A stretch of DNA of 64,000 nucleotides from Salinarchaeum sp. Harcht-Bsk1 (lineage in GTDB: Archaea > Halobacteriota > Halobacteria > Halobacteriales > Salinarchaeaceae), in the NCBI RefSeq assembly GCF_000403645.1, contig NC_021313.1, positions 434,001-498,000 of the forward strand. Direction: 5' to 3'. The notes under the pieces were generated by a model. The model saw only the letters and a program-made list of their open reading frames with translations. It was not told the DNA's origin and ran no database searches. This document shows positions 61,245 to 64,000 of the stretch, piece after piece. Numbering within the stretch: position 1 is the first letter of the stretch; each line of letters begins with the position of its first letter. A program made the position numbers and the translations under genes.

Positions 61245-64000
61245 ATGGAACGAACTCGACGCGGAATCCTACGATCAGTATCAGTACTCTCCGCGCTGGC
61301 GGTCGGCGCGAGTGCAACAGCATCGGCAGCGGACTGTAGCTCGGCCCCCGCGTGGGACGAGACGGTCCTCTACTCGTCCGGCGACCAGGTCCAGCACCCC
61401 GACGGCGACGGGATCGACGTGCTCTGGAAAGCCGAACTGGACTCCCGGAACGCCGAACCGTCCCGATCGAGTTCCTACTGGAACTACGTCGGCGACTGTA
61501 GCGGCGACACCAACACCGCGCCGACCGCCTCGTTCACGACCGACGTGAGCACGCCCGAGCCCGGCCAGGACGTCTCCTTCGACGCGTCGGGATCGGGCGA
61601 CTCCGACGGCTCGATCGCCTCGTACAGCTGGGACTTCGGCGACGGTTCGTCGGCAACGGGACAGACGGCCACCCACAGCTACTCGTCGACCGGTGATTAC
61701 GACGTCATCCTCACCGTCACCGACGACGACGGCGCTTCCGACACGTCCACGAAGACCGTCTCCGTCACTGATGGCTCCACGAACCAGTCGCCCAACGCGT
61801 CCTTTACCGTCACTCCGGCAGATCCCGGAACGGGCGAAACCGTAACCGTCGACGCGGCAGACTCCTCGGACTCGGACGGGACCATCGCGAGCTACGAGTG
61901 GGACTTCGGTGACGGCACGACGGCGAGTGGACAGACCGCCAGTCACAGCTACTCGTCGACTGGCGACTACTCGATTTCGCTGACGGTCACCGACGACGAC
62001 GGTGCGACCGATTCGAACACCACAACAGTGACCGTCTCCGATAGTGGCAGCGGTGGCCAGTGCGAGGGGGTTCCAGCCTGGGACTCGGCCGCGACCTACA
62101 CCGGCGGTGACCAGGTCACCCACGACGGAGCCCTCTGGACGGCCGAGTGGTGGACGCAGGGGACCGAACCGGCCGAGAGCGAGAACGTCTGGACGCTCGA
62201 GGGCGATTGCAGTGGCGGCAACGAGACGCCGACGGCGTCGTTCACGACCGACGTGAGCACGCCCGAGCCCGGCCAGCAAGTCGGCTTCGACGCGTCGGGA
62301 TCGAGCGACTCCGACGGCTCGATCGCCTCGTACAGCTGGGACTTCGGCGACGGCTCGTCTGCAACCGGGCAGACGGCCACCCATAGCTACTCGTCGTCGG
62401 GCGATTACACGGTCACCCTGACCGTCACCGACGATGCAGGTGCGACCGACAGTGCGTCGACGATCGTCTCTGTCAGCGAGCAGGCCACCCAGATCACCAT
62501 CGACAGCAGCGTCGACGGCTGGGTCGGTGTCACGCCCTCGGAGATCGACGGCCAGACGAATCCGGCGATCGATCTCGTCTCCGGGGAACCCTACGCGTTC
62601 ACGTGGAACAACGTCGACGGCGTGCCCCACAACCTCACGATCCGGAACGCAGCAGGAGACGCCTTGCTGCAGACGGAGACCGTCGGCGAAGCAGGGCAGA
62701 GTCGAACGCTGGAGTTCACGCCGACCGAGGAGATGGTCGAGTACATCTGTTCGATCCACCCGCAAGCGATGGTCGGGGATCTCGCGATCGACGGGAACCA
62801 GCCACCCACCGCAACCCTGTCGGTCGATCCGACGAACCCGAGCCCCGGTCAGTCGGTCTCGTTCGACGCGTCGGGCTCCACGGACTCCGACGGCACGATC
62901 AGCAGCTACGAGTGGACGTTCGGCGACGGTGCCACTGGCACCGGCCAGAGCGCTTCACACACCTACAGTGACGCGGGCGAATACACGGTTCAGGTGACCG
63001 TCACGGACGACGGCGGTGCAGCTGCGATCGCGAGTTCGACGATCACCGTCGGCGACCCCAACCAGGGCCCGACTGCGTCGTTCACGACGAGCCCGTCCTC
63101 GCCCGACCCAGGGCAGTCGGTCTCGTTCGACGCCTCCGGGTCCTCGGACTCAGACGGAACAATCAGCAGCTACGAGTGGGACTTCGGTGACGGCACGACG
63201 GCCACCGGCGAGACGGCAACGCACACCTACGCCGATGGCGGCTCCTACGAGGTGACGCTGACGGTCACGGACGACGCCGGAGCCACGGACTCGACGACGT
63301 CGACCCTCGGGATCGGCGGGGACGTGTCGGCCAGCACGACGCTCTCGGAGTTCTACTCTGCGTACGACGAGGACTTCAACCACGAGTACACCGAGGGCGG
63401 CGTTTCCGGACTGCTGAAAAACGAGTTGAATCCCGATGCGAGTGAGTTCGGTGCCGACGTCGATGCGATCTCGAACAACGCCGGCGACGGTTCGATGGAA
63501 CTCGGCTCGCTGGGCGACCGGGGACTCGAGTTGGTCAAGCGCTTCGACGCCGATGGAGTCCCACGCGAAACGACCGGTCGGCTCATGGCGTGGCTGACGG
63601 GGCTACCCACGCAGACGGAACCGGTCCCGTTCAACGACGGCGAGGGTCGAGACGGCGGCCTGACCGCCGACGCCGGACCAGTGTCGGCAACGAACGATCC
63701 GTCGGTGCTCGTACAGGACACCTGGCCACGTGGCGAGCAGTTCGACGACGTCTACCTCCAGCCCCAGCGAGTCGACTGGAGTAGTAGCGTCAGCGACAGC
63801 CAGTACACCAACACCGACAACCCGATCATCGACGCGGTGAAGGACAAGGTCCATCCCGTCACGGGCGAGACGCTGGGTTCGGGCTTCACCTCGAACGCGC
63901 CGCTAGAGGCCACCGCCGAACTCCACGACGACGGCTGGATCTTCGACATGTCGATGATCTTCAAAAACACCACGGACGTGCCGGTGCTGATCGACGGCGC
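61245..64000 (+). CDS. Secreted chitin-binding/PKD/cupredoxin protein (partial, runs off window)
   Basis: About 918 residues are visible with no stop. A Tat-type signal (TRRGILRSVSVLSALAVG) is followed by a CBM5/12 (chitin-binding type 3) domain with paired cysteines (~30-86), two PKD domains with SWDFGDG/EWDFGDG motifs (~92-262), a second CBM5/12 (~270-320), a third PKD (~322-405), a cupredoxin-like domain (~412-515) with copper ligands in HNLTI and ICSIHPQAM, two further PKD domains (~522-690), and a C-terminal region of unknown type. Export through Tat fits a folded, cofactor-bearing protein. The arrangement suggests binding of chitin or a related polymer outside the cell; no glycoside hydrolase domain is seen yet. 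The unknown C-terminal part may be catalytic. Confidence 0.8.
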   Translation, partial: MERTRRGILRSVSVLSALAVGASATASAADCSSAPAWDETVLYSSGDQVQHPDGDGIDVLWKAELDSRNAEPSRSSSYWNYVGDCSGDTNTAPTASFTTDVSTPEPGQDVSFDASGSGDSDGSIASYSWDFGDGSSATGQTATHSYSSTGDYDVILTVTDDDGASDTSTKTVSVTDGSTNQSPNASFTVTPADPGTGETVTVDAADSSDSDGTIASYEWDFGDGTTASGQTASHSYSSTGDYSISLTVTDDDGATDSNTTTVTVSDSGSGGQCEGVPAWDSAATYTGGDQVTHDGALWTAEWWTQGTEPAESENVWTLEGDCSGGNETPTASFTTDVSTPEPGQQVGFDASGSSDSDGSIASYSWDFGDGSSATGQTATHSYSSSGDYTVTLTVTDDAGATDSASTIVSVSEQATQITIDSSVDGWVGVTPSEIDGQTNPAIDLVSGEPYAFTWNNVDGVPHNLTIRNAAGDALLQTETVGEAGQSRTLEFTPTEEMVEYICSIHPQAMVGDLAIDGNQPPTATLSVDPTNPSPGQSVSFDASGSTDSDGTISSYEWTFGDGATGTGQSASHTYSDAGEYTVQVTVTDDGGAAAIASSTITVGDPNQGPTASFTTSPSSPDPGQSVSFDASGSSDSDGTISSYEWDFGDGTTATGETATHTYADGGSYEVTLTVTDDAGATDSTTSTLGIGGDVSASTTLSEFYSAYDEDFNHEYTEGGVSGLLKNELNPDASEFGADVDAISNNAGDGSMELGSLGDRGLELVKRFDADGVPRETTGRLMAWLTGLPTQTEPVPFNDGEGRDGGLTADAGPVSATNDPSVLVQDTWPRGEQFDDVYLQPQRVDWSSSVSDSQYTNTDNPIIDAVKDKVHPVTGETLGSGFTSNAPLEATAELHDDGWIFDMSMIFKNTTDVPVLIDG

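Follow-up and report, generated by a model that had tools for sequence, protein, structure and literature searches.

A conserved C-terminal domain associated with chitinases and cellulases in a predicted chitin-targeted cupredoxin protein of Salinarchaeum sp. Harcht-Bsk1

The window analysed here is a stretch of 64,000 nucleotides from Salinarchaeum sp. Harcht-Bsk1 (contig NC_021313.1; G000:C1:434001-498000), the genome of which (G000) is a single haloarchaeal contig of 3,255,260 bp. A gene starting with an ATG at position 61245 of the window (+ strand) encodes, according to the translation of its reading frame, a chitin-binding cupredoxin protein of 1058 amino acids (aa). It is composed of a Tat signal, a divergent CBM5/12 module, two PKD domains, a CBM5/12 module, a PKD domain, a cupredoxin, two further PKD domains and a C-terminal domain (CTD) of 366 aa. 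Our tentative reading is that the protein is a secreted auxiliary of chitin breakdown, the CTD of which works on insoluble beta-1,4-linked polysaccharide, likely in an oxidative manner and in electron exchange with the cupredoxin. Sequences and models support a secretion signal, chitin-type targeting, intact cupredoxin ligands and a conserved CTD in the position of a catalytic domain.

Occurrence and genomic context of the CTD

Of the 392 Halobacteriales genomes sampled, 42 contain the CTD; they belong to 20 of 95 genera, and a phylum-wide sample contained none outside Halobacteriales. Plasmids carried it only in Halocatena, where the copy of Halocatena salina is annotated as 'hypothetical protein', and viral contigs contained no CTD. 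In bacteria, the whole genomes of which were covered only by a pattern scan dependent on close relatives, none was found. The domain is usually located C-terminal to a targeting module.

GH18 genes were detected in 29 of the 42 CTD genomes compared to 34 of the 350 others (Fisher p = 9e-17, a value inflated by shared ancestry as the genomes are not independent). Eleven of the 13 CTD genomes without GH18 carry GH9, which was found in one of 38 sampled CTD-negative genomes, and in G326, one of the remaining two, GH5-type genes directly adjoin the CTD gene. At the level of individual loci, 15 CTD genes have a GH18 gene at a distance of no more than 5 kb. CTDs in a cellulose context form one clade of the tree (support 100/99), and 13 of the 15 inspected loci of this second clade adjoin GH5, GH9 or GH10 genes. 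G352 and G380 each carry one chitin-type and one cellulose-clade CTD, which fall into separate clades; the second copies are found at L113 (G352) and L071 (G380). In the clustered loci inspected, the CTD gene points in the same direction as the chitinase or cellulase genes next to it and is often the last in the row.

The chitin-type CTD comes after CBM5/12 and PKD domains, which is the same arrangement as in the adjacent GH18 proteins. Most cellulose-type CTDs follow a module of ~140 aa without a Pfam family, which is ~40-76% identical to its best matches in the neighbouring GH5 and GH10 proteins. Judging from these sequences, the CTD stands where the catalytic domain would be in clusters of both kinds, chitinase and cellulase, and the targeting module is swapped to match the partner enzymes. 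We regard the fact that the association extends to both of the main structural polysaccharides with beta-1,4 linkages as the strongest evidence on the role of the CTD and consider it very probable that the domain acts on insoluble beta-1,4-glycans.

The ~140-aa module (VVHEFDGG...VRFNFWQG...) is itself a candidate new carbohydrate-binding module and occurs in GH5, GH10 and CTD proteins of haloarchaeal cellulase clusters (L037 residues 26-180, L067, L068, L070, L108 and L111). In the GH18 cluster at L061, a gene between the chitinases and the CTD gene (L061:7223-8896) encodes a subtilase (Peptidase_S8) that contains PKD and, at its C-terminus, a weak match to CBM5/12; such a chitin-targeted protease would fit an attack on protein-coated chitin. 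Full GH18 chitinases are repeatedly accompanied by short and incomplete GH18-like proteins that carry CBM5/12 and PKD (L057:6814-8391 (-), L058:9751-12030 and the GH18s genes of L061, L062, L063 and L069), and reduced-length GH18 domains are also described in PMC12343721. In addition, a group of weak GH9 matches (~76-92 bits) was observed at G000:C1:2679104-2680375 and in the chitin-degrading genomes G058, G102, G171, G196, G343 and G346. It possibly represents an enzyme acting on chitin oligomers and not on cellulose.

Conservation and predicted structure of the CTD

The first-pass annotation, made from the letters of the window alone, had described the C-terminal region as unrecognised, and residues 693-1058 were indeed without a known family in our searches. 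Pfam, NCBIfam and PHROGs yielded no significant match, the Pfam glycoside hydrolases showed no similarity, and the best profile match among PDB sequences was a designed protein (E 0.32). Structure prediction of this region, from residue ~690 onward, gave a confident model (pLDDT 83.5, pTM 0.88), in which helices are followed by a beta-sandwich. A Foldseek search with the model returned no full-length fold match; the only matches below E 0.001 were partial, CBM3-like beta-sandwiches with poor superposition (rmsd 5-10), and viral structure models contained nothing convincing. A second cupredoxin was rejected based on an hhalign probability of 0.3%. The same holds for a simple surface anchor, which the first-pass annotation had named as one outcome that would speak against its proposal: the C-terminus is a conserved 366-aa domain of polysaccharide-degradation clusters, located where the neighbours have their catalytic domain.

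Across 43 CTD sequences (median pairwise identity 48%, minimum 34%), D140, H256, Q258, R259, D260, H292, Y296, R299, Y302, Q305, H336 and E338 are invariant, while H200 (kept in 42) and E263 have one exception each. These positions refer to the CTD alignment; adding 694 gives the residue number in the window protein. The conserved motifs are HPQRD, HxxPYxxRxxYPxQ and HVE. Of the conserved histidines, H894 is encoded inside the window, and the invariant H950, H986 and H1030 beyond its end. The invariant histidines may enable the CTD to bind a metal.

We also considered that the CTD could be a new glycoside hydrolase or lyase family specialised on chitin or cellulose, perhaps with an activity that its neighbours lack, in which case the cupredoxin would be an unrelated add-on in one clade. 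The catalytic-domain position beside GH18, GH5, GH9 and GH10 genes would suit such a role, D140, D260 and E338 together with the nearly invariant E263 could be catalytic acids, and most members have no redox domain. However, three invariant histidines and a nearly invariant fourth would be unusual for a hydrolase site, the domain is unlike any Pfam glycoside hydrolase, and the maintenance of a cupredoxin with intact ligands across two families (see below) would be left unexplained. We regard this explanation as rather unlikely. Less likely still is a non-enzymatic function as a large binding or expansin-like loosening module, which would disrupt chitin or cellulose in its crystalline form and so assist the neighbouring hydrolases. 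The CBM3-like sandwiches, as the sole Foldseek matches, point in this direction despite their poor superposition, as do some CTDs of cellulose clusters without an obvious CBM (L106, L107, L109 and L071). Nevertheless, the polar residues of the three motifs resemble an active site and not an aromatic binding face, and most CTD members already hold CBM-like modules. Overall, the CTD is probably an enzyme.

Domain architecture and the cupredoxin

The start of the frame, the Tat motif and the domain order proposed in the first-pass annotation were reproduced by translation and Pfam. All five proposed PKD domains and one CBM_5_12 module (residues 278-316, PF02839 with conserved aromatics) scored above the Pfam cut-off. 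The second CBM5/12 module that had been claimed, at the N-terminus, fails Pfam and was detected only by a profile of the relatives' modules, with 20 bits compared to 65 bits for the other. It is nevertheless a genuine, if divergent, CBM5/12, with an insertion and without the Trp-Trp pair. Pfam found no Glyco_hydro_18 (PF00704) in the protein, and the 1058-aa translation contains no c-type haem motif (CxxCH). The features, in window coordinates, are:

61245..61331, + strand: Tat (RR) signal peptide MERTRRGILRSVSVLSALAVGASATASA, from the translation; an RR signal is also found in relatives and chitinases
61335..61499, + strand: divergent CBM5/12, residues 31-85, Trp-Trp pair lost; 20-bit profile match, no Pfam match
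61512..61766, + strand: PKD domain 1, PKD_4 stretch
61794..62048, + strand: PKD domain 2, PKD_4; two stretches within 61500-62051, boundaries approximate
62076..62192, + strand: CBM5/12, residues 278-316; PF02839 above cut-off
62220..62465, + strand: PKD domain 3, PKD_4
62475..62804, + strand: cupredoxin, residues 411-520, with H462/C502/H505/M509; PF00127 above cut-off, homologue conservation, model and Foldseek
62805..63050, + strand: PKD domain 4; two PKD_4 stretches within 62802-63320, boundaries approximate
63060..63305, + strand: PKD domain 5, residues 606-687, PKD_4
63321..64000, then 418 bp past the window to G000:C1:498418, + strand: CTD, residues 693-1058; alignment, invariance in 43 sequences, model and cluster contexts

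The blue-copper-like domain proposed in the first pass is well borne out. Pfam Copper-bind scored 25.9 bits against a cut-off of 21.2 bits, and H462 (62628-62630), C502 (62748-62750), H505 (62757-62759) and M509 (62769-62771) align with the ligands of amicyanin. Among 31 haloarchaeal homologues, the two histidines and the cysteine do not vary, and the methionine is conserved to at least 90%. The model of the domain (pLDDT 96.5) gave 160 PDB matches in Foldseek with E <= 0.001, of which the 50 best listed are cupredoxins or proteins with cupredoxin-fold domains; the list is headed by a three-domain copper nitrite reductase, matched in its fused cupredoxin domain (TM 0.78, rmsd 2.4). A full type-1 copper ligand set in a Greek-key cupredoxin fold is credible on these grounds, and copper binding is predicted. 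As judged by fold and alignment, the ligands would be co-located in the model, and the other outcome that the first-pass annotation had named as speaking against it, ligands lying apart, thus did not come about either.

Homologues of the cupredoxin are present in 59 of 117 haloarchaeal genomes. Many of them are proteins of ~700 aa with a Tat-like signal, a cupredoxin and a glucose/sorbosone-dehydrogenase-type domain, and the nearest other cupredoxin in the source genome (44% identical) is likewise fused to a PQQ glucose/sorbosone-type dehydrogenase domain (PF07995 confirmed). Since so many homologues, including the nearest one, sit on PQQ dehydrogenase-type proteins, the cupredoxin looks like a redox module held in common with them. 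The Tat-exported cupredoxin-PF07995 protein of the source genome (L056:3111-5114 (-), G000:C1:1145111-1147114) is a possible electron source for, or origin of, the cupredoxin in the window. Haloarchaeal chains with two or more cupredoxin repeats were also observed (G036:C2:3192-8294 and L078), one of them in a 1753-aa frame. The window domain has the same fold as the type-1 cupredoxins of the Hyphomicrobium denitrificans three-domain nitrite reductase, amicyanin and the haloarchaeal PQQ dehydrogenase-like proteins, and the same H...C-x2-H-x3-M ligand set as the haloarchaeal homologues. Like the fused cupredoxins of known systems, it is joined to a larger enzyme or chain. Unlike known cupredoxins, it is flanked by PKD domains, within a chitin-binding protein, and is fused to an unclassified domain.

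A cupredoxin is not the typical companion of the CTD but an exception, as most CTD proteins are without one. The fusion was seen only in the source genome and in G058, G102 and G171, which belong to one genus of a different family. Cupredoxin-bearing CTDs group together in the tree (90/81), which is consistent with a single fusion event. The layout is co-linear and almost gap-free between the two haloarchaeal families, with identities of 78% for the CTD, 70% for the cupredoxin and 72% for PKD domain 3, while most CBM and PKD units reach 41-68%. That the ligand set has been kept speaks for the importance of copper binding.

Comparison with lytic polysaccharide monooxygenases and other redox proteins

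Lytic polysaccharide monooxygenases (LPMOs) of the AA10 family act on chitin and cellulose. AA10 LPMOs with CBM5/12 were found in six of the 392 Halobacteriales genomes, four of which also carry the CTD. Mutual exclusion of the two was therefore not seen, and the CTD does not simply replace AA10. The haloarchaeal AA10s (G058, G102, G171, G343 and G346) resemble the CTD protein in being secreted, in their CBM5/12 and in their chitinolytic hosts. Their N-termini were read in four of the six AA10 genomes: the mature chain starts with a histidine after the signal (AAA-HGA or AAA-HGS), whereas that of the window protein begins near ADC after the Tat signal and has no N-terminal histidine. The CTD further differs in its C-terminal placement and shows neither a PF03067 match nor profile similarity. 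LPMO_10 (PF03067) was absent from the source genome, from the part of the protein in the window and from 30 CTDs. Sequence, profile and N-terminus thus led us to reject an AA10 LPMO identity.

Proteins that combine CBMs with redox domains are established in bacteria, as described for Cbp2D and Cbp2E of Cellvibrio japonicus and for redox proteins of Teredinibacter (PMC12542752, PMC8981238, PMC10916295). The idea shared with the window protein is a secreted, polysaccharide-directed protein with an electron-transfer domain for the breakdown of insoluble polysaccharide. The window protein differs from the Cbp2D/Cbp2E type in having a cupredoxin as redox domain, no CxxCH and a CTD that matches no domain in the libraries searched. 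The bacterial work reportedly concerns cytochromes and other redox domains. Our literature search found no paper joining a cupredoxin to chitin binding in archaea.

From the chitinase clusters of Natrarchaeobius, chitin-binding proteins that have no GH18 domain are reported (PMC12343721). Like the CTD proteins, these are secreted, contain chitin-binding domains and adjoin GH18 genes. They probably include CTD members, since G196 and G343, which we infer to be Natrarchaeobius, have CTD genes in such clusters. The available parts of PMC12343721 describe the proteins only as lacking GH18 and report no conserved domain, cellulose-side counterpart or cupredoxin fusion. A Salinarchaeum strain grows on chitin, and a preparation of it degraded chitin visibly without measurable reducing sugars, which the authors ascribe to large oligomers (PMC4569967); oxidised ends would fit this observation as well, which is only suggestive.

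Possible function of the protein

According to the reading that we tentatively prefer, the CBM5/12 modules would anchor the protein on chitin, the PKD domains would act as spacers and the CTD would be the working domain on insoluble, crystalline beta-1,4-glycans. The embedded type-1 copper domain would swap electrons with the CTD, and because of this exchange the reaction of the CTD would most likely be oxidative, that is, metal-dependent and LPMO-like. The first-pass annotation had suggested oxidative attack or electron transfer at chitin. Secretion, chitin targeting and type-1 copper are supported, but an attack on the polysaccharide by the copper site itself is not: the role of a type-1 copper site is to carry electrons and not to attack polysaccharide, so that any oxidative attack would fall to the CTD. 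That the CTD is oxidative and partnered by the cupredoxin is a possibility we put forward with some reservation.

Several observations weigh against this interpretation. The CTD has neither sequence or profile similarity to LPMOs nor an N-terminal histidine. As the cupredoxin is found in a single CTD clade, the case for a redox role of the family as a whole depends on apparently one fusion event. Nor do the cupredoxin-bearing loci inspected in the other genus belong to chitinase clusters. Moreover, the nearest GH18 in the source genome is 350 kb away from the gene, and the link to chitin in this genome thus rests on the CBM5/12 module and the CTD family.

A more far-reaching version of the oxidative reading may be speculated upon, although we hold it to be rather improbable. 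The CTD would then represent a new class of enzymes that cleave polysaccharides oxidatively and depend on a metal. This class would be the archaeal equivalent of LPMOs, with a histidine site that is internal instead of N-terminal and with chitin and cellulose clades, and the window protein would be a self-sufficient form of it that carries a copper electron donor of its own in the same polypeptide. Quite improbable is that, in the manner proposed for proteins of the Cbp2D/Cbp2E type, the copper domain passes electrons between a different enzyme on the surface of the chitin and either the redox chain of the cell or a secreted PQQ dehydrogenase, with the CTD just a neighbour on the chain: the many related cupredoxins on PQQ dehydrogenase-like proteins and the AA10 LPMOs with CBM5/12 of the other genus with the fusion would fit, but the source genome has no AA10 LPMO and hence no known external acceptor.

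Gene neighbourhood

The complete 1058-aa gene was recovered and ends 421 bp beyond the window (L009:12421 = G000:C1:498421). Neither flanking gene is a glycoside hydrolase, for which the first-pass annotation had advised looking. Upstream lies a GatD/asparaginase-type gene and downstream, on the same strand and 37 bp away, an Amidohydro_2 gene (Pfam); a connection of the two to chitin is not obvious. A congener genome, compared as an empty-site test for recent gene gain, is without the downstream amidohydrolase gene. Also downstream, L009:15002-17705 contains genes resembling the phenylacetate-degradation (Paa) set, judged by eye from their translations.

Implications for archaeal polysaccharide degradation

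For growth on crystalline chitin and cellulose, haloarchaea use known enzymes of the GH18 or the GH5, GH9 and GH10 families, and a recognised LPMO is found in few of these archaea (6/392). While CBM-bearing redox proteins are already known from bacteria, the open possibility here is a categorically new enzyme. The cupredoxin fusion offers a first hint of the function of the CTD, and its invariant residues provide specific targets for mutation. Unannotated but conserved, and accompanied by chitinases or by cellulases depending on the part of its tree, the CTD is a strong candidate for a component so far missing from the picture of how archaea break down polysaccharides.
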